DNA from: Rhizobium sp. GN54
GTDB lineage: Bacteria; Pseudomonadota; Alphaproteobacteria; Rhizobiales; Rhizobiaceae
Assembly: GCF_021026345.1 (NCBI RefSeq)
Contig: NZ_JAJNCZ010000010.1
Span: 62,001 to 126,000 of the forward strand
Direction: 5' to 3'
Length of the DNA stretch: 64,000 bases
In this document: positions 34,571-51,504 of the stretch, piece by piece
How the letters are laid out: each line of letters opens with the position of its first letter
Position numbering within the stretch: the stretch's first letter is position 1
Position numbers and translations under genes: made by a program
The notes under the pieces: generated by a model
Database searches by the model: none
What the model was told of the DNA's origin: nothing
Seen by the model: the letters and a program-made list of their open reading frames with translations, nothing else

Positions 34571-35208
34571 GGCGTCGCCTCGCTGCCGGGCATGGCTCGG
34601 CCAGCGGCGCCGGCGCCGGCATTGCCGCTGCCACCCCGGGCGATATCGAGTGCGCGGGCGAGAAGCAGCGGACCGCGCGTTCCGACCTGTTCCTCGTTAT
34701 GGAACAGCGAGGTGAGCGCCATGCCGAATACCGCGCCACCCACGGCGCCGGGCGGCGCCTGGTAGTCCTCGAGTTCGCCGGGGCCGAGCGTGCCGTCGGC
34801 GAAGCTGGCCGCCATGGCGCAGAGAAAGGTCTCGTCCTCGTTTCCGGCGCTGTCCAGCGCCTCGCGGGCACGGGTCCGGCTCTCGACGCCGGGCTGGTAG
34901 ACCCATGCCTCGGCGGCCTTCAGGGAGGCGGGGATGGTGGCGCCTTCGGGAACGATGTCGCGCGCCGACAGGCAGGCCCACCAAGTCGCCTCGCGGGCGG
35001 GAAGGCTGTGGGCGAGAAGCTGCAGCATGTCGATCAGCGCGCCTTTTGTCTCCAGTTCCGCCAGCACGTCGGCGATCGAGGCGCTGGCGGCGGCCTCCAG
35101 CCGTGTCCGCAGCACGACATTGCCTTGCGCAAGGATCCTGGCCGCCGGAATGCCGGGCAGTTTCTTCAGATCGCGATAGGGAGAACCGTCTGTCATCGCC
35201 GTGCCCAT
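34567..35208 (-). CDS. Uncharacterised type VI-associated protein between vgrG and PAAR
   Basis: 213 aa, helical, Ala-rich, no signal or membrane segment. It contains LPAREATWWACLSARD in the middle; from memory this resembles a domain of unknown function (DUF6931) found beside PAAR genes, but I could not check. It starts with TGATG coupling to vgrG and overlaps PAAR by 4 bp, so it is made with the spike. A second start at 35196 is possible. An adaptor/chaperone for loading VgrG-PAAR is an inference from position. Confidence 0.75.
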   Translation of the reverse strand: MGTAMTDGSPYRDLKKLPGIPAARILAQGNVVLRTRLEAAASASIADVLAELETKGALIDMLQLLAHSLPAREATWWACLSARDIVPEGATIPASLKAAEAWVYQPGVESRTRAREALDSAGNEDETFLCAMAASFADGTLGPGELEDYQAPPGAVGGAVFGMALTSLFHNEEQVGTRGPLLLARALDIARGGSGNAGAGAAGRAMPGSEATP

Positions 35209-37334
35209 CAGTTGATCATCGTCAGAGCGCCCTTGGCGATCAGCAGGCCGGAGGATTTCAGCTGGGTCATGCCGCCGCCCTCGAGCTTCAGCATGCCGCC
35301 ACCCTTCAGCGAGGCCTGTCCCTGGCCTTCCATCGTCAGCTGGGCACCGGCCGTCACCTTGGCGGTGGCGGTGGCCTTCACCTCGATCTGGGTGGAGGAA
35401 ATCGTGATCTTCGCCGGCGTCATCTCGATCTGCGAGCCGCCGCAGACCAGCGTGATCTTCGACCCGGCCGAGATTTTCAGCGTCGTTCCGACATCTATGT
35501 CGTAGCTCTTGCCGATATCGTCGGACTTCACGCCGGTGATGGCGACGGCCTGGTCGGCCTTGACGGTCAGCTTGTCATCATTGCCGATCGTGGTGGTACG
35601 CTTCTGGGCGATCGAGATCGCCTCCTCGCCCTTGGCGACGGTGAAGCTGTGGTTGCCCTCGCGAATGGTCTCGGTCTTGTCGCCATGGATGGTCTGGCGC
35701 AAGGTGCCGCCCTTGCGATGCTCCAGGCCGACAGTGATCTCCGCATTGTTCTTGACGATCTGCGTGTAGTCGCGCTCGGCCTGGAAGCGCACGAGCTCCG
35801 CGTCCCGCTTGTCGTCGAAGACGAGCTCGTTGAAGCCGCCGCCGCCTTTCGAGCTGTTGGTCTTCAGCCCGACCTGGGTCTGGTTGGCGGGCAGGGTATA
35901 GGGCAATCTGGTATCGCCGTTGTAGACCATGCCGGTGATCAGCGGACGGTCGAGATCACCTTCCTCGAACTGGACGACCACTTCCTGGCCGATGCGCGGA
36001 ACGCCGACCATGCCCCAGCCTTTGCCGCTCCACGGCACGGCGGTGCGGATCCAGCAGGACGACATGTCGTCGCGACGCCCCAGGCGGTCCCAATGGAACT
36101 GAACCTTCACCCGGCCATACTGGTCGGTCCAGATTTCCTCGCCCGGCTTTCCGACGACGACGGCGGTCTGCAGGCCGGAATGGGTCGGGCGCGGGGTGAC
36201 CTGCGGCGCGCGAAATGCCATGTCGACCGGCTGGACCTCGAAGATGCAGCGATAGATGTCGCTGCTGTTGCCACCGTCGAAATCGAGCGTCGGGCCGAGG
36301 ATTGCATCGATGAATTCGCGGTCCTCGACATCGGCGTCGATCTGCAGCTGGTGGCGGGCATGAATGACGAGATACTCGCTGTTTTCCGCCTTGCGGGGAT
36401 GTTTCTTCAGCTTGAACTTGTTGCCGGCCGCCATCTGGCGGACATTGCTGACGCCGCGGGAGCGCTGGGCCTGGGCGGCGAAACCCTCGACCTTGACGCG
36501 CGCATGATGTTCGCCTTCGCGGATGTCGGCGTGTCGACCCGGATATTCATAGACCTCGTAGGACTTATAGGCATGCTTGCCCTTGGGGAGCGCCTTCACC
36601 GATTTCAGGTCGGATCTCGGCTTCTCGAAATCATAGTCCTGCAGGGTGACCTTGCCGGTGCGGATGCTTTCGGCGCCGCGCCATTCGAAGACATGGTCCT
36701 CGTTTCGGCGATAGGAGGATTCGCGGAAGTAGAATTCGATCTCGGCGCCGTCCTCGATTTCCTTGTGAGCGCTGGCCTCGTCTGCGAGGACCAGGATCTC
36801 CTTCGTCTTCTCGTGGGTGAAATAATAATAGATGCCTTCCTCCTCCATCAGCCGGGAGACAAAGGCGAAATCGGTCTCGTGGTACTGAACGCAATAATTG
36901 CGCTTGGGGTAGGGATGCTTGGTCGTGTTCCGGAAGTCGGAAAAACCGTGCTGGCCGAAGATTTCCTTGATCACGTCGATCACCGACTTGTCCTGGAATA
37001 TCCGGCAGTTCGAGGTCAGCGTCAGGAACCACAGCCACGGCCGCACCTCGGCGCGGAAATAGCCGCGTCCGGCATGGGAACCCAGATATTCGGCGGCGGC
37101 GCAGCGCCCCTGGAAATAGCGAATCTTGTCCTTCGGCGCATCGATCTCCAGCCGCAGACGCTCACCGACGATCTTTTGCAGGTCGAGGTCGATATCCGGA
37201 GACATGAACTCGATCGTCGCTTCCGTGATCCGGCTCAGGCCTTCCCCGACCTCGGCCCTCATGAGGAAACCCTTGAGGTTGTTGGGAAGCTCGAGGCGGA
37301 CCTGACGTCCTTCCAGAATGCTGTTGCTGGCCAT
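35208..37334 (-). CDS. vgrG: Type VI spike protein VgrG (TssI)
   Basis: 708 aa. It has the gp27-like N-terminal part (YHETDFAFVSRLMEEEGIYYYFTHE is diagnostic), the OB-fold/gp5 part (GRVKVQFHWDR, SCWIRTAVPWSGKGWG, GQEVVVQFEEGD) and the long beta-helix needle with GNDDKLTVKAD-type repeats. It ends in TMIN with no effector domain. As the only vgrG in view, cargo is probably carried by PAAR or adaptor proteins encoded next to it. Confidence 0.97.
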   Translation of the reverse strand: MASNSILEGRQVRLELPNNLKGFLMRAEVGEGLSRITEATIEFMSPDIDLDLQKIVGERLRLEIDAPKDKIRYFQGRCAAAEYLGSHAGRGYFRAEVRPWLWFLTLTSNCRIFQDKSVIDVIKEIFGQHGFSDFRNTTKHPYPKRNYCVQYHETDFAFVSRLMEEEGIYYYFTHEKTKEILVLADEASAHKEIEDGAEIEFYFRESSYRRNEDHVFEWRGAESIRTGKVTLQDYDFEKPRSDLKSVKALPKGKHAYKSYEVYEYPGRHADIREGEHHARVKVEGFAAQAQRSRGVSNVRQMAAGNKFKLKKHPRKAENSEYLVIHARHQLQIDADVEDREFIDAILGPTLDFDGGNSSDIYRCIFEVQPVDMAFRAPQVTPRPTHSGLQTAVVVGKPGEEIWTDQYGRVKVQFHWDRLGRRDDMSSCWIRTAVPWSGKGWGMVGVPRIGQEVVVQFEEGDLDRPLITGMVYNGDTRLPYTLPANQTQVGLKTNSSKGGGGFNELVFDDKRDAELVRFQAERDYTQIVKNNAEITVGLEHRKGGTLRQTIHGDKTETIREGNHSFTVAKGEEAISIAQKRTTTIGNDDKLTVKADQAVAITGVKSDDIGKSYDIDVGTTLKISAGSKITLVCGGSQIEMTPAKITISSTQIEVKATATAKVTAGAQLTMEGQGQASLKGGGMLKLEGGGMTQLKSSGLLIAKGALTMIN

Positions 37335-37356: not shown

Positions 37357-37653
37357 TCAGTTCGGCTGGGCCAGCTCGACGGCGACCAGCTCGTCGTTCT
37401 GCTTCAGACGTGCGACGATGTCGGGATGAACGGCCCACAATTCGCCCGGGGTGACGCCTTCCGGCAACAGCTCGCCCAGCGCCGACATTGAAGGCAGGCC
37501 CAGGCAGCGCACCGGCTTGGGATAGGGCTTTTCATTGCTCAACATGGCGCTGAGATGCGCGTCGCCGTCCAGCAGCCAGAAGGATTGCTCCACTTCGACG
37601 AGAAGGATGCCTTCATCCCGGTCATCTTCCTGGTTGGTCTCAAGGTGTTGCAT
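37357..37653 (-). CDS. Small acidic hypothetical protein upstream of vgrG
   Basis: 98 aa, start ATG 37653 overlapping the stop of the sheath-fusion gene (TGATG). Not recognised. It is acidic, with an EDDRDEG start, a LLVEVEQSFWLLDGDAHLSA segment and RCLGLPSMSALG; no signal peptide. Coupling to the sheath fusion on one side and vgrG 22 bp on the other suggests a type VI accessory role. Confidence 0.7.
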   Translation of the reverse strand: MQHLETNQEDDRDEGILLVEVEQSFWLLDGDAHLSAMLSNEKPYPKPVRCLGLPSMSALGELLPEGVTPGELWAVHPDIVARLKQNDELVAVELAQPN

Positions 37654-40616
37654 CACAGGTTCTCCAGAAGGGCCGCCAGTTCGGGGTCGAGTTCGGAATC
37701 CGACGATCCGCCGGTGTCGTCGGCGAACTGGGCAAGCAGGTCATCAAGGCTGACGTCGTCGTCGGAAGCGGTTCCGGTGTCGAGATTGAGATCGAAGTCG
37801 GGTTCCGCGCCATCATTCGATTCGGTGGCGGGCGCGGTGTCCCCGGTCTCCGTCGATGGGGCGGCGGCAAACGAGATGATGGTGTCATCCATGCTCGCCG
37901 AACGGGTTGGCGTGCCCGCCCAGGGTCCGGCGAGCATGGCGCCACCAAGCGATTGGAACGAGCCCTGGCGGATTTCCGTGCGCCCCTTGACGGACAGGAC
38001 CGGCATGAAGCCGCGCGCCACGACCTCGGCCGCGCCACGCGTATCCAGCAGCCGCTCGGTGCAGGGCAGCGCGATCTGGTCGCCGTGCTGATCGGTCATG
38101 ACATGCATGGGAATGTCGCCGAGCGACATGACCTCGCCGAGGCGTATTGTCTTGCCCATGCGGGTCACCGTGGCGGCCATGAGGATGGCCGAGAGGATGG
38201 CCGGATTGGCCCACAGCATGCCCTTGAGGCCGCTGCGCAGGGTGAATTCCTCGAAGTCGAACGGCTCGACCGGCTCGGTCCGGCGGCCATAGGGCAGGCG
38301 CAGCAGGAAGCGCGGCGCCGCAAGGCCGACATGGGCCGCCTCGGGAAGTGCCCGCAGATCATCCCATGTCCTGGCGACGATCGGATGGCGGTCATGCTTG
38401 CGCGTTTCCAGGAATTGCGGGGAGATCGCCGCGACGAAGGGCGCGTTCATCCAGGCCGATATTTTCGACATGCGCGCCAGAAGCTCGGCGTGCGGCGGGG
38501 TTTCTTCCAGCGTGTAGAGACCGAACACGGCGGACAGCGGTCCCTGCCGATCATCGAGCCTGGGCTCCTCGGCCAGCATGCGGAACAGCCCGCTTTCCGA
38601 CAGGTCGTCCTGGGCCGAGAGATCCGCCGCCCATTCCTCGGCGGAGACGTCGTAAAGCACGATTTCGAGGTTTGCACCGGTCTCGATCCGCCGCGCCAGA
38701 AGTTCCAGGCTGCGCCAGGTGGCCTCGACCGCCTGAAAATCCGGATGATGGAGAATGGCGCGCATCGCGCCCGAAAGCGCCTCGTCGATGACGGCGAGCA
38801 TCGTGTCCTGGGCGGGGTCGCGGGCGGCATGAACATAGGGGCCGACGATCCGGGCGATCAGTTCCGTGGCGGGGCTTGCCTGCGTCAGCCGACCCTGGCT
38901 GTCGCCGATGAGCGAGCGGAAATCGCCGAGCCTGCGATCGGCCGGTACGGCGCTACCTTTCGCCCGCTTGCGGGACGAAAGGTCGAAGTCTGCGTGAATG
39001 CCGGCGAAGCCCTGCAATTCGGCCATGGCCCGCTGATCGCCCCGGGCGACACGCTGGCGAAGACCGGCGAGTTCCTCGAACAGGGCGACATTGTCGTAAA
39101 GCGCATCGGGATGCAGGTCGTCGAGGTTCCTCAACGTCACTTCGACGCCCGCGCCGTCCGCGCCGATCGGCAGGACAAGCGTCGTGGCGAAGCGGGCGAT
39201 CACGGCGTCGATGCTGTCGACGTCGAAGCGGATCGGCTTGCGAGCGGCAAGCTCGTCGCCGATCTCGATTGACCCGCGCACGGCCCGGCCGGAAAAATCG
39301 CCAAGAAGCGCAATGCGGAATTTTGCCCGAGGCAGATCGAGCTCGGCGGGTCGTTCCGCCGTCAGGGTGCCGAAGGGGGACAGGATCGCCGCCGCCGGCT
39401 CTTCGGTGTCCGCGGTTTCTTCCGTCTCGTCATCGTCGAGGCCGGCGAGGAGGCTGGACAGGTCGTCATCCGTGTCGGGTTCCGTGGCCTCGTCCTGCGA
39501 GTCCGCATCGAGCCCACTCAGCAGGGCATCGAGGTCGGCGTCCGGCTCCGCCCCGGTTTCATCGTCGGAGGCGCCGAGATTTTGCAAAAGGGCGTCGAGA
39601 TCGTCGTCAGCGTCGGGCTGCGGCTCCTCCCCGGCTTCCTCATTCGGCGAAAGCTCGGCAGCCTCCGACAATTCGGGGCTGTCGAGGAAGCTCTCCGGCA
39701 GTTCGCTGGCGACGGTGTCCGCCGCATCTTCATCCTCGATGTTCAGCAGCAACAGGGCGTCGATGTCGTCGTCTGGCTCCGCGTCCGATACCTCGTCGGT
39801 GTCGTCGCCGAGATTGTTCAACAGCGCATCCAGATCGTCGTCCGCAACCGGATCCGCTTCCGCCGTGTCGTCGGATACCGGTTCGAATTCCTCTATCCGG
39901 TCGGCATTGTCAGGGATTTCGGCCTCGTCGGAAGCAGCGACAAGCTTCATCCGGTCCAGTACGGATGCGGTGGCGGCGCTTTCATCGACCGCTTCCGCAA
40001 CCGGCGTTGCGCGAAGGGAGTTCAGGATCGCATCGACATCGTCGCGCCCGGCAGGCTCCTCGGCATCCGGCACCGCAGCCCGCAGGCTTTCGAGCGCATT
40101 CGAGCGGTCGTCGGACGGATTTCCCGACGCGCCGGAAAGTCCGGTCAGCGCCGCGAGCGTGGCGGGATCGGAGATCAGTTTCGCGATCAGATCCTCCGCT
40201 CCGGTCTTGCCGTCCATGTAGGTTACGAGATGGCTGAGCTTTGTCCGTGCCTCCAGAAGCTTGCGCAGCGGTTCCACGTTCTTCGCGATCGCCGCCGGAG
40301 AAAAGTCCTCCAGGCGCTCGAAGGTCAGGTCGACGGAGAGATTGCCTTCGCCCGTCAGCATGTTGGGCACATGGAAGGCCGCGCGCGGACGGATCGCCTT
40401 CATCCGTTCGTCGAAATTGTCGACGTCGATTTCCAGGAACTTGCGATCGGCGACCGCCGGCAGGGGCTCGGCCGAATTGCCGGAGAGATCGGCCATCACG
40501 CCCATGACGAAAGGCAGCTGGACCGTCTTTTCCGCTCCGTACACTTCCACGTCATATTCGATCTGCACCCGAGGCGCCCGGTTGCGCGCAACGAATTTCT
40601 GACCGCTTTTCGACAT
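37653..40616 (-). CDS. Giant sheath-like fusion: TssB - acidic repeat linker - TssB-like - TssC
   Basis: 987 aa from ATG 40616 (GGGGAAGG upstream). Residues 1-158 are a TssB domain about 80% identical by eye to the stand-alone TssB (shared IEYDVEVYGAEK, FVMGVMADLSG, RKFLEIDVDNFDERM). Residues ~165-410 are an Asp/Glu-rich linker with short LDALL repeats. Residues ~430-545 are a second, divergent TssB-like unit (FRIALLGDFSGR, DDLHPDALYDN). Residues ~585-935 are TssC-like: FQAVEATWRSLELL, FVAAISPQFL, PRFLLRLPYG and CTERLLDTRGAAEVVARGFMPV. An acidic tail follows. Ordinary tssB and tssC are also present, so this is a specialised extra sheath or tail protein. Confidence 0.88.
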   Translation of the reverse strand: MSKSGQKFVARNRAPRVQIEYDVEVYGAEKTVQLPFVMGVMADLSGNSAEPLPAVADRKFLEIDVDNFDERMKAIRPRAAFHVPNMLTGEGNLSVDLTFERLEDFSPAAIAKNVEPLRKLLEARTKLSHLVTYMDGKTGAEDLIAKLISDPATLAALTGLSGASGNPSDDRSNALESLRAAVPDAEEPAGRDDVDAILNSLRATPVAEAVDESAATASVLDRMKLVAASDEAEIPDNADRIEEFEPVSDDTAEADPVADDDLDALLNNLGDDTDEVSDAEPDDDIDALLLLNIEDEDAADTVASELPESFLDSPELSEAAELSPNEEAGEEPQPDADDDLDALLQNLGASDDETGAEPDADLDALLSGLDADSQDEATEPDTDDDLSSLLAGLDDDETEETADTEEPAAAILSPFGTLTAERPAELDLPRAKFRIALLGDFSGRAVRGSIEIGDELAARKPIRFDVDSIDAVIARFATTLVLPIGADGAGVEVTLRNLDDLHPDALYDNVALFEELAGLRQRVARGDQRAMAELQGFAGIHADFDLSSRKRAKGSAVPADRRLGDFRSLIGDSQGRLTQASPATELIARIVGPYVHAARDPAQDTMLAVIDEALSGAMRAILHHPDFQAVEATWRSLELLARRIETGANLEIVLYDVSAEEWAADLSAQDDLSESGLFRMLAEEPRLDDRQGPLSAVFGLYTLEETPPHAELLARMSKISAWMNAPFVAAISPQFLETRKHDRHPIVARTWDDLRALPEAAHVGLAAPRFLLRLPYGRRTEPVEPFDFEEFTLRSGLKGMLWANPAILSAILMAATVTRMGKTIRLGEVMSLGDIPMHVMTDQHGDQIALPCTERLLDTRGAAEVVARGFMPVLSVKGRTEIRQGSFQSLGGAMLAGPWAGTPTRSASMDDTIISFAAAPSTETGDTAPATESNDGAEPDFDLNLDTGTASDDDVSLDDLLAQFADDTGGSSDSELDPELAALLENL
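39438..40049 (-). repeat. Acidic DxLDALLxxL protein repeats in the sheath-fusion linker
   Basis: Six copies of a ~12-residue motif of the form D-D-h-D-x-L-L-x-x-L (h = hydrophobic): DDVDAILNSL, DDLDALLNNL, DDIDALLLLN, DDLDALLQNL, ADLDALLSGL and DDLSSLLAGL, at roughly residues 190-393. Two more relatives lie at the C-terminal end (SLDDLLAQF and DPELAALLENL). Spacers are Asp/Glu/Ala/Thr-rich and probably disordered. DNA between copies is not identical, so these are protein-level repeats. Confidence 0.8.
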
Positions 40617-41921: not shown

Positions 41922-44630
<2,709 letters not shown>

Positions 44631-47515: not shown

Positions 47516-48010
47516 TCACCCTTGCCGCGTCAGTGTGATCTCGCCATTGGTCACGTCGAGCGCCGTGCGCAGGTAGAGATCGACAGGCACAGGTTCGGCC
47601 CAGAGTTCGCCGCGAATGTCGAAGGAGATGACGGCACCGCCGCCGCTGTCCTGTCGCATCTCGATGTCGAGCGTCTGCGGCAGGATGCGCGGCTCGAAAG
47701 TCTCGATCGCCTTGCGCAATGCCAGCCTGATTTCGTCGGCCCGGATACGGGTGCTGGACGACCCGGACAGTGTGGGAGTGCCGTAGTTCAGCACGGAAGC
47801 GGCGACATTGGGAAAGAGCGCCAGGTCATGCTCGGCCTCTATGTTCGACGTATTGAGCAGCCAGGCGAGGTCGCGCTGGATGATCTCGCGAAGCCTTGCG
47901 ATGTCGATCATGCGGCCGGAACCCGCTTCCGCCATGCTGCGGGGCGCGTCGTCTGTCAGCCGGTCGAGCAGCGAGGGCTGCAGCCGTTCCGCGAGCAATC
48001 GGTCAGCCAT
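47516..48010 (-). CDS. tssE: Type VI baseplate subunit TssE (gp25-like)
   Basis: 164 aa. gp25/GpW lysozyme-like fold typical of TssE: LLDRLTDD, REIIQRDLAWLLNT, SVLNYGTPTLSG and IRLALRKAIETFEPRI. It nucleates sheath assembly on the baseplate. Its start overlaps the impE-type gene by 8 bp. Confidence 0.94.
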   Translation of the reverse strand: MADRLLAERLQPSLLDRLTDDAPRSMAEAGSGRMIDIARLREIIQRDLAWLLNTSNIEAEHDLALFPNVAASVLNYGTPTLSGSSSTRIRADEIRLALRKAIETFEPRILPQTLDIEMRQDSGGGAVISFDIRGELWAEPVPVDLYLRTALDVTNGEITLTRQG

Positions 48011-48818
48011 TGTCGGCAGCCGCCTCCTCTGACTGCCCGATCGTCAGCTCGCGAAGGTCCATGAGCGCGCAATCCCCGGTATCGGTGGCCAGCAGGCGTT
48101 GGCCGACGGCTGCGGTGGCGCCCGTTTCGGCACCAAGCCAGTCGGTGGTGAGTGCCAGACGGTGGCGGCTGCCGGCGGCCTCGGCGGTTCCGGCATAGCG
48201 CGTGGGGATCAGCACGACCGCGTCACCGCCGTTCGACCAGGTGACGTCGGCCGGCATCCAGACCCGGTCCCTGAGATCGGCCGGCGGTTTCATGACGATC
48301 CGTGAGATCGCGGTGAGCGGCGCCCAGAAATAGCGACCGTTGACGATGATTTCGAGAAGCGGGCCGAGCCGCGGATCCGCATCGGCGATCCAGGAGAACG
48401 CAGTGCCGTTCAGCTGGCCGGGCATGGCGGTGGCCGTGTCGAAGGCACGCAGTCGCAGCTCTTCGGCGGCACGGTGATTGCCCTCGGCTTCCAGCCGCAG
48501 CGCCTCGACCATCCATGCGATCCAATCCTGCGGCTCGCCGAAGACAAGCGGCTGTTTCTCGCCACGAAACACCTTTTCCCGGGTGATCTCGCAGATGATC
48601 GCCGTGCGATACATGTGCGCCATGTCGCTCGCCTGTGGGTCGAGCGTGGCGCAGGTCTTGAGCTGGGCGATCGCCCGCTGCCATTGGCCCTGCACGCAGA
48701 GCAACTGGAACAGGAAGATGCGCAGGCGGCTGTCTTGCGGCGTCTTGCGGATCGTGTCCTGCAAGGCGGCAAGAGCGCCTTCGAGATCGCCCAGTTTGAG
48801 AAGTTGCTCGGCTGTCAT
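48003..48818 (-). CDS. ImpE/SciE-type type VI accessory protein
   Basis: 271 aa from ATG 48818; the frame is open to 48938 but that runs into the hcp terminator area. The N-terminal TPR-like helices (LLKLGDLEGALAALQDTIRKTP, FLFQLLCVQGQWQRA) are followed by the ImpE beta-rich domain (GRYFWAPLTAISRI, RDRVWMPADVTW). ImpE proteins accompany many alpha-proteobacterial type VI loci; their exact role is unclear. Confidence 0.9.
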   Translation of the reverse strand: MTAEQLLKLGDLEGALAALQDTIRKTPQDSRLRIFLFQLLCVQGQWQRAIAQLKTCATLDPQASDMAHMYRTAIICEITREKVFRGEKQPLVFGEPQDWIAWMVEALRLEAEGNHRAAEELRLRAFDTATAMPGQLNGTAFSWIADADPRLGPLLEIIVNGRYFWAPLTAISRIVMKPPADLRDRVWMPADVTWSNGGDAVVLIPTRYAGTAEAAGSRHRLALTTDWLGAETGATAAVGQRLLATDTGDCALMDLRELTIGQSEEAAADNG

Positions 48819-49476: not shown

Positions 49477-50982
49477 TCAGTTCCCGCCTCTCTGGGAGGG
49501 CAGCTTGGACACCAGGCGCAGCGACACGGTGAGCCCTTCAAGCTGATAATGCGGACGAAGGAAGAACTTCGAGGTGTAGTAGCCGGGATTGCCCTCGACC
49601 TCTTCCACCAGCACTTCTGCGGCTGCCAGGGGATGCCTCGCTTTCACCTCTTCCGGTGAGGTTTCCGCGTTGAAGTCGACATAGTTGTTGATCCAGTCCT
49701 GAAGCCAGGTCTGCATGTCCGCGCGTTCACGGAACGAGCCGACCTTGTCGCGGACGATGCACTTCAGGTAGTGGGCGAAGCGGCAGGTGGCGAACATGTA
49801 GGGCAGGCGTGCCGCGAGGTTCGCGTTCGCCGTCGCATCCGGATCATCGTATTCCGCCGGCTTCTGCAGCGACTGGGCGCCGATGAAGGTCGCCATGTCG
49901 CTATTCTTGCGGTGGATCAGCGGCATCATGCCGTTGCGCGCCAGCTCGGCCTCGCGGCGGTCCGAGATCGCGATCTCGGTCGGGCACTTCATGTCCACGC
50001 CGCCGTCATCGGTCGGGAAGGTGTGGGTCGGCAGGTCGTCCAGGGTGCCGCCCGATTCCACGCCGCGGATGCGCGTGCACCAGCCGTATTGCTTGAACGA
50101 ACGGGTGACGTTGCGCGCCATGCCGTAGGCGGCGTTGACCCAGCAGTATTTGTCGGACGAGGCGCCCTCGGTGTCTTCCTGGAAGGCGAACTCGTCGACC
50201 GGATCGGTCTTGTCGCCATAGGGCTGGCGACCGAGGAAACGCGGCATGGCAAGGCCGATATAGCGGCTGTCCTCGCTTTCGCGGAGAGAGCGCCAGGCCG
50301 CGTATTCCGGGGTCTGGAAGATCTTCGTCAGGTCGCGCGGATTGGCGAGTTCAGACCAGCTGTCCATCTGGAACAGCGACGGGGCCGCTGCGGTCAGGAA
50401 AGGCGCATGGGCCGCCGCCGCCACCTTCGACATCTCGCCGAGCAGCTCGACGTCCTGCGGGCTGTGATCGAAATAGTAGTCGCCGACGAGGCAGCCATAG
50501 GGCTCGCCGCCGAACTGGCCGTATTCCTCTTCATAGAGCTTCTTGAAGATCGGCGACTGATCCCAGGCCGTGCCCTTGAACTTGCGCAGGGTCTTGGAAA
50601 GATCCTTCTTCGAGACGTTGAAGACGCGGATCTTCAGCATCTCGTCCGTCTCGGTATTGTTGACGAGGAAATGCAGGCCGCGCCACGCGCTTTCCAGCTT
50701 CTGCAGGTCGGCATGGTGGAGGATCAGGTTGACCTGCTCGGTGAGCTTCCGGTCGATTTCGGCGATGATGCTCTCGATGGAGCGGAGCGCGTCGTTGGAG
50801 ACGAGCTTCTCGTTCAGGAGAACCTGTTCGGCCAGCGTCCGCACCGCTTCCTCGACGGCGGAGCGCGCCTGATCCGACTTCGGGCGAAACTCCTTCTGGA
50901 GCAGGGATGCGAATTCGCTGGAGGCGAAGATGGTCTCGGTTGCCGGTTCGGACCCGGCTGCCAGGTGCGTCGTATCGTTCAC
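49477..50982 (-). CDS. tssC: Type VI sheath large subunit TssC (VipB)
   Basis: 501 aa, normal length. It shows the whole TssC sequence: LQKLESAWRGLHFLVNNTETD, FLTAAAPSLFQMDSW, MPRFLGRQPYG, FRERADMQTWLQDWI and the C-terminal FFLRPHYQLEGL. It forms the contractile sheath with TssB, 3 bp upstream. It differs clearly from the TssC-like part of the fusion at 37653. Confidence 0.97.
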   Translation of the reverse strand: MNDTTHLAAGSEPATETIFASSEFASLLQKEFRPKSDQARSAVEEAVRTLAEQVLLNEKLVSNDALRSIESIIAEIDRKLTEQVNLILHHADLQKLESAWRGLHFLVNNTETDEMLKIRVFNVSKKDLSKTLRKFKGTAWDQSPIFKKLYEEEYGQFGGEPYGCLVGDYYFDHSPQDVELLGEMSKVAAAAHAPFLTAAAPSLFQMDSWSELANPRDLTKIFQTPEYAAWRSLRESEDSRYIGLAMPRFLGRQPYGDKTDPVDEFAFQEDTEGASSDKYCWVNAAYGMARNVTRSFKQYGWCTRIRGVESGGTLDDLPTHTFPTDDGGVDMKCPTEIAISDRREAELARNGMMPLIHRKNSDMATFIGAQSLQKPAEYDDPDATANANLAARLPYMFATCRFAHYLKCIVRDKVGSFRERADMQTWLQDWINNYVDFNAETSPEEVKARHPLAAAEVLVEEVEGNPGYYTSKFFLRPHYQLEGLTVSLRLVSKLPSQRGGN

Positions 50983-50985
50983 GGC

Positions 50986-51504
50986 TTATTCCTCGGTTTC
51001 GACTGTCTTGGACTGCACGGCGGGACCCGACGTCAGGGCCTTCAGCAGGGTCGGATCCTGGATGATCTGCGCCACCAGGTTTTCGGCGCCGGTCTTGCCG
51101 TCCATGTAGGTGGTGAGGTTTGCGAGCTGGGTTCGCGCCTCCAGCAGCTTGCGCAGCGGCTCGACCTTGCGGGCGATCGCGGCGGGCGAGAAGTCCTCGA
51201 GGCTCTCGAAGGTGATGTCGATGGCGAGATTGCCTTTACCGGTCAGCGTGTTGGGCACGGTGAACGCGGCTCGCGGCCGCATCGACTTCATGCGCTCGTC
51301 GAAATTGTCGACGTCGATTTCCAGGAATTTCCGATCCGCGACCGCCGGCAGCGGCTCTTCCGACTTGCCGGACAGATCCGCCATGACGCCCATGACGAAT
51401 GGCAGTTGCACGGACTTTTCTGCGCCGTACACTTCCACGTCATATTCGATCTGAACGCGCGGCGCGCGATTGCGCGCAATAAACTTCTGACTGCTTTTGG
51501 CCAT
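50986..51504 (-). CDS. tssB: Type VI sheath small subunit TssB (VipA)
   Basis: 172 aa. The TssB sequence includes KFIARNRAPRVQIEYDVEVY, FVMGVMADLSG, RKFLEIDVDNFDERM and LRKLLEARTQLANL. It pairs with TssC immediately downstream (3 bp). The first 158 residues of the 987-aa fusion are a close copy, showing a fairly recent duplication. Confidence 0.97.
   Translation of the reverse strand: MAKSSQKFIARNRAPRVQIEYDVEVYGAEKSVQLPFVMGVMADLSGKSEEPLPAVADRKFLEIDVDNFDERMKSMRPRAAFTVPNTLTGKGNLAIDITFESLEDFSPAAIARKVEPLRKLLEARTQLANLTTYMDGKTGAENLVAQIIQDPTLLKALTSGPAVQSKTVETEE

Follow-up and report, generated by a model that had tools for sequence, protein, structure and literature searches.

A one-chain TssB–linker–TssB′–TssC′ fusion in a Rhizobium type VI secretion cluster, a probable new accessory component of the apparatus

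The stretch of DNA analysed here, hereafter the window, comprises 64,000 nucleotides of Rhizobium sp. GN54 (contig NZ_JAJNCZ010000010.1, positions 62,001 to 126,000 of the forward strand) and carries a complete type VI secretion system (T6SS) cluster. Within it lies a gene for a 987-amino-acid (aa) protein that joins a TssB head, an acidic linker, a second TssB-like unit (TssB′) and a TssC-like part (TssC′) in one chain; TssB′ and TssC′ together are referred to as the core. In transcription order the cluster reads tssA, tssB, tssC, hcp, tagJ, tssE, tssF, tssG, clpV, a hypothetical gene of 355 aa, the fusion, an open reading frame (ORF) of 97 aa and vgrG, followed by DUF6931, PAAR, tagH, tssK, tssL, tssM, tagF and PP2C (Table 1). 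A first-pass annotation, made from the letters of the window, had given the coordinates of the fusion correctly and left out its strand, which is minus. It had set the gene immediately before the vgrG and PAAR genes, which is slightly inaccurate, as the 97-aa ORF precedes vgrG and PAAR lies two genes past it.

Table 1. Segments of the fusion and neighbouring genes, in positions of the window
Feature	Position	Strand	Evidence
Whole fusion gene, 987 aa	37653..40616	minus	single open frame; same head–linker–core frame in 64/88 loci
TssB head, residues 10-158	40143..40589	minus	PF05591 192 bits; 81% identical to local TssB
Acidic linker array, about residues 159-417, 9 LxxL-type motifs	39366..40142	minus	model: mostly disordered, short helices
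TssB′ of core, lacking the first about 33 residues of TssB	39048..39344	minus	PF05591 29.7 bits; alignment
TssC′ of core, residues 604-886, lacking VipB_2/domain 1	37959..38807	minus	
C-terminal tail, motifs SLDDLLAQF and ELAALLENL	37656..37757	minus	model helices 957-965 and 978-986
Ordinary tssB	50986..51504	minus	Pfam
Ordinary tssC with VipB_2; N-terminal EFASLL as in P. aeruginosa HsiC1	49477..50982	minus	
tagJ (ImpE)	48003..48818	minus	PF07024
clpV/tssH, Arg6 and Asp87 (blocked-groove class)	41922..44630	minus	TIGR03345 1256 bits
Conserved hypothetical gene adjoining fusion, 355 aa	40817..41884	minus	relatives in plasmid records
97-aa ORF, overlapping the fusion stop codon (TGATG)	37360..37653	minus	no Pfam match
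vgrG	35208..37334	minus	Pfam

Profile searches of the segments confirmed the proposed order of parts. Pfam recognised VipA/TssB at residues 10-158 and in a second stretch (whole-protein E 9.6e-64), and the VipB/TssC N-terminal domain at residues 604-886 (E 9.9e-45), so that TssC homology is clear within residues 585-935, where it had been predicted; VipB_2 was not found by Pfam in the 987-aa protein. Among NCBIfam models, TIGR03358 scored 200.7 bits (cut-off 97.25) and TIGR03355 153.3 bits, under its cut-off of 271.5. The ATG at 40616 gives the 987-aa protein, and it is this position, rather than a TTG farther upstream at which the mechanical ORF opens (1023 aa), that corresponds to the start in relatives. 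GC content is 0.61-0.68 (0.71-0.87 at third positions) with no break along the gene. Given that the same frame recurs in homologous loci, it is real and not an assembly artefact, and the anatomy of the protein is close to certain.

The head matches positions 2-151 of the 155 in the PF05591 profile, nearly its full length. It retains the N-terminal lattice strand and the TagJ-binding segment, with QKF..RNRAPRVQIEYD invariant in 33 of 33. As judged from sequence, the head is a complete TssB with lattice strand, TssC-binding helix and TagJ-binding N-terminus, which supports the earlier suggestion that it could join the sheath. The first 158 residues had also been called a copy of the local TssB. 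They do form a TssB head, but one that, being 81% identical, is an old paralogue rather than a recent copy. Across relatives, a head shares about 79% identity (75-85%) with its own TssB; mean identity is about 76% among heads and about 91% among TssB proteins. We rejected gene conversion of the head by the local tssB, since heads are about equally close to other TssB proteins as to their own (26 pairs).

TssB′ spans residues about 425-523 and matches the same profile over positions 23-120 (E 1.7e-6). In the alignment the core lacks the first TssB strand, the TagJ-binding TssB N-terminus and TssC domain 1, and across relatives PF05943 (VipB N-terminal domain) was present in 33 of 33 cores and PF18945 (VipB_2 lattice domain) in 0 of 33. 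With the sheath domain definitions given in PMC5807055, where domain 1 makes the lattice, the core sequence retains just the outer part of the protomer, namely domain 2 and the domain 3 helices. Because domain 1 is gone from both halves, the core should not polymerise.

Structure comparison assigned the core the sheath outer-domain fold in one chain, as in the one-chain sheaths of phages. Such one-chain sheath proteins of phages, pyocins and extracellular injection systems polymerise through domain 1; the core is about 8-13% identical to them (6j0n, 3j9r) and the domain 1 profile is absent. Relative to the TssB-TssC (VipA-VipB) protomer, for example P. aeruginosa TssB1C1 (5n8n), the core fuses TssB′ and TssC′, both without domain 1, and the protein adds the linker array and the tail.

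Phylogeny of the TssC N-terminal domain placed 12 cores, drawn from alphaproteobacteria, one betaproteobacterium and three further genomes, apart from 34 TssC rows (some of them identical) with 100/100 support, a split recovered by all 200 bootstrap trees; the program warned that some core branches are long. The tandem second TssC, which we take to be the TssC40/ImpD type of rhizobia, resembles the fusion in being a TssC paralogue alongside ordinary TssC. Unlike the fusion, it has no TssB part in the rows examined, and it forms a separate clade inside TssC, apart from the cores. Six related cores scored 95.2-218.9 bits with TIGR03355, all under the TssC cut-off, and NCBIfam holds no model dedicated to the core. 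Many residues of both head and core are invariant among relatives. By these sequence comparisons the core is a family of its own, distinct from TssC and tandem TssC.

Across 65 headed proteins, linkers measure 86-1000 aa (median 598) with 33% Asp+Glu. The pattern [VILMAD]-L-x-x-[LFMI] matches these linkers at 1544 non-overlapping sites (shuffles, 364 ± 14), with 1-48 occurrences per linker (median 24; 9 in the fusion of the window) and a count that tracks length (r 0.95). A stricter pattern, LDx[ILVM]2, occurs 526 times against 40 ± 6 expected, in 60 of the 65 linkers and 57 of the 65 tails. The autocorrelation of leucine has maxima at 21 and at 40-42; the linker is an array of acidic LxxL/LDxLL motifs with a period of 21 residues, and even near kin can differ in its length (716 and 810 aa in two Leisingera). 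The motif L-x-A-[LM]-[LM]-x-x-[LM] closes the protein in all 88 loci, with one extra residue in L022. Beyond the anchor, the array unit scores best against the core's own helix (3.24), followed by the tail motif (2.32). Derivation of the array as copies of the TssB C-terminus was rejected, its score beyond the anchor rising little (0.48, with 0.82 for the protein's own end); for the TssA N-terminus as a further candidate source, the few examples found were too divergent to score.

These 88 loci combine 8 from plasmids with the best 80 from a scan in which 84,980 species genomes were searched with the core alignment. The scan returned at least 498 stretches similar by tblastn, possibly including ordinary TssC; the best 80 belong mostly to Rhodobacteraceae and kin, and the closest among the matches listed is Rhizobium halophytocola (79%). 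A TssB head in frame was found in 64 loci; a contig edge truncates 11 others, and the remaining 13 were classed as headless, the last including the frame-broken L027, L068 with a divergent head under the cut-off, and L059 and L107, in which an array but no head was seen. Plasmid records with the same frame come from Ruegeria, Phaeobacter, Qingshengfaniella, Leisingera and Parasedimentitalea, six being intact single frames of 1213-1540 aa. In L020, L021 and L023-L026 the gene is annotated as 'contractile sheath large subunit', with a start placed downstream of the TssB head. The downstream starts had suggested a programmed frameshift between head and core, which we rejected as the six frames are open throughout. 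The Parasedimentitalea marina copy (L027:2149-5898) is broken by frame changes, and the adjoining vgrG and PAAR are annotated as short.

In the family of Ruegeria conchae, 295 genomes were searched; 72 had a TssC-like match at 1e-15 and 32 a core, the core matches reaching E 8e-198 or better and the next one 3.4e-48. Ordinary TssC was found in each of the 32. Of their core frames, 25 are long, at 981-1781 aa with at least one truncated at a contig end, and the other seven, at 588-746 aa, are too short for head plus core. Since ordinary TssB and TssC share the cluster of the window and ordinary TssC accompanies the core in 32 of 32 genomes, the fusion is accessory rather than a bulk protomer, in agreement with the first-pass annotation. 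When the phylum was sampled evenly (397 genomes), four had the core at 1e-60, that of the window and three headless. In another class of the phylum, searched around genome G342, 12 of 369 genomes carried a core at 5e-114 or better, all in frames of at most 608 aa, and three weaker matches (26% identity) were also core-like. Headless cores also occur in one betaproteobacterium and in genomes of other classes. Three distant core genomes were checked; ClpV and ordinary TssC are present in each, with core and ordinary tssC on different contigs in two. Among 61 genomes of the window's relatives the core is present in one, its own (0 of 6 in its genus), and because of this the cluster was probably acquired sideways.

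Headed and headless forms are mixed in a tree of 42 cores (25 headed, 17 headless), with 7 changes, at least 4 of them forced by well supported branches. With respect to head fusion the best tree needs 5 changes, and a single clade of heads was not rejected (approximately unbiased test, p 0.51); several independent head fusions are therefore not demonstrated, and one gain of the head with several losses is the simplest reading. Intermediates include an array without head (L107), a divergent head (L068) and a short array without head (L137). In eight headless genomes searched, seven had one full TssB, and G452 had a second TssB far from the cluster. On these comparisons head and array come and go, the core being the part retained. 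The optional head, the 21-residue repeat array and the separate core family are additions to what the first-pass annotation had described.

The T6SS of the window is of the P. aeruginosa H1 class: its TssC carries EFASLL at the place taken by LLDEII in other classes, the cluster includes TagJ, and its ClpV has Arg6 and Asp87, as do 40 and 39 of the 43 ClpV proteins examined, respectively. Within this class TagJ takes hold of the TssB N-terminus as well as binding ClpV, and the Arg6/Asp87 groove is described as incompatible with the LLDEII helix (PMC4239648). At the position of the TssC ClpV helix, distant cores carry an LLDxII-like motif in 10 of 16 cases under a relaxed pattern and 7 of 16 under a strict one, with about 1 expected; in alphaproteobacterial proteins the motif mostly lies in array and tail instead. 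As the likeliest reading we tentatively propose that the fusion is an accessory sheath subunit, a sheath-tethered, non-polymerising mimic of the protomer that may act at the ClpV/TagJ recycling face. The head would pair with ordinary TssC and enter the sheath, leaving array and core hanging from its surface, and the core would present a copy of the face worked by ClpV and TagJ, holding or recruiting the recycling machinery there. Alternatively, the core could be a decoy that delays recycling. Headless forms would act likewise, untethered and with fewer motifs. The fusion may thereby work at the same sheath-ClpV step as the recycling adaptor TagJ/HsiE1, which, unlike it, is a different protein encoded separately in the same cluster.

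Several observations weigh against a tethered mimic at the recycling face. Because the ClpV of the window has Arg6 and Asp87, the array cannot simply bind it in the V. cholerae fashion; ClpV grooves do differ, yet another binding mode being described in E. coli (PMC5048182). Only 7 of 41 alphaproteobacterial cores have LLDxII at the TssC-helix place under the strict pattern, the matches seen falling in the next helix, and LDxLL motifs are generic. The core motif follows the class of TssC (6/6 against 1/16; Fisher p 0.0009 on 16 pairs), which we rejected as proof since the tree holds one independent contrast. A short-segment score ranked the own TssC best in 3 of 4, and the array was rejected as copies of the TssC N-helix, its score beyond the LxxL anchor falling (delta -0.96). 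The C-terminal motif is found in just 1 of 16 more distant cores, the head was predicted at low to middling confidence, and no ClpV was found on the Eleftheria plasmid that carries a core, that plasmid alone being searched.

Two further candidates were rejected. ClpV is not broken in headless systems, being whole in the five headless loci that show it (L034, L057, L090, L093, L098). No TagJ was found in 3 of the 14 headless loci, and all 27 headed loci had one; as two of the three (L133 and L149, with no recognisable TagJ) are close kin, its loss was not tied to that of the head.

The cap or terminator of the first-pass annotation corresponds to a factor acting on sheath end or length, in which the protein would join an end of the sheath, growing or complete, through its head, the lattice-dead core would keep more subunits from adding, and the array would determine reach. 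An outer fold stripped of its lattice domain, an array of such variable length and a sheath-competent end on each single chain would fit this role. We nevertheless consider it unlikely, with no observation singling it out and given that the head keeps the domain 1 strand and should not halt growth by itself, that headless cores are common, and that array length differs between the two close Leisingera. Comparably improbable, in our view, is an outer brace or baseplate link, with the core packed outside the sheath or on baseplate or spike to steady the extended state, and the acidic, multivalent array as a hub for TagH, VgrG or the neighbouring hypothetical protein. Gene order speaks for it, as the fusion or core adjoins vgrG in Rhodobacterales plasmid clusters, follows tssK in Eleftheria and lies beside FHA-tssK-tssL-tssM in L114; the separation of core from ordinary tssC in two of the three distant genomes speaks against it, and no specific partner was found.

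A drifting, functionless TssBC duplicate, or an artefact of assembly, is very improbable. The frame-broken plasmid copy L027 and the greater divergence of heads than of TssB would suit drift, but the parts keep their order in one open frame in 64 of 88 loci, the C-terminal motif is constant in all 88, and the cores form one clade across classes with many invariant positions. Least credible is the first-pass annotation's self-assembling tail-like particle. The one-chain fold recalls phage sheaths, but the lattice-making domain is missing on both the TssB and TssC sides, and viral_contigs gave 40 pattern matches and no relative by tblastn, on which ground a viral origin was also rejected.

A bolder version of the tethered-mimic proposal, which we hold to be doubtful, is that the T6SS of several proteobacterial classes have an extra protomer mimic with the lattice domain deleted from both halves, to which alphaproteobacteria have added a leash ending in a true sheath subunit and bearing up to 48 ClpV-directed docking motifs at a 21-residue pitch. 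Recycling machinery would then ride the sheath before contraction, and repeat number would tune reloading. The fusion looks like a new accessory part of the T6SS made from known parts put to new use, a conserved component of a much studied nanomachine that has been masked by annotation as ordinary TssC with the head omitted. It would represent a natural separation of the outer, recycling face of the sheath from the lattice-forming layer, and the role of that face (ClpV/TagJ access, timing of disassembly) is therefore testable through a single accessory gene. With its differing repeat numbers, the array also provides an unusual natural series for testing multivalent recruitment along a filament. 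No description of the fusion was found among the open-licence papers listed by the searches, going by titles and abstract openings, and one may exist elsewhere. In the sections covered, PMC9113992, which notes a peculiar i3 group of plasmids belonging to Rhodobacteraceae, Phyllobacteriaceae and Rhizobiaceae, does not mention 'fusion' or 'fused', and PMC2660368 applies these words to VgrG only.

The 355-aa neighbour has no clear Pfam family. Its relatives (36-40% identity) occur in 12 of 72,556 plasmid records, all from Rhodobacterales and all 12 also with a core. A gene of similar size to the 97-aa ORF occupies the same position in Qingshengfaniella. Directly before the fusion in Rhodobacterales plasmid clusters (L020, L024 and sister loci), and not in the window, lies a gene for a voltage-gated-type ion channel (PF00520; L020:16151-17008, E 4.6e-41; L024:11613-12443, E 3.3e-39), an odd companion for a T6SS. 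The T6SS on the Eleftheria terrae plasmid (L022) has four genes annotated as hcp in a row and a core with the C-terminal motif, with R-body genes ~13 kb further on.

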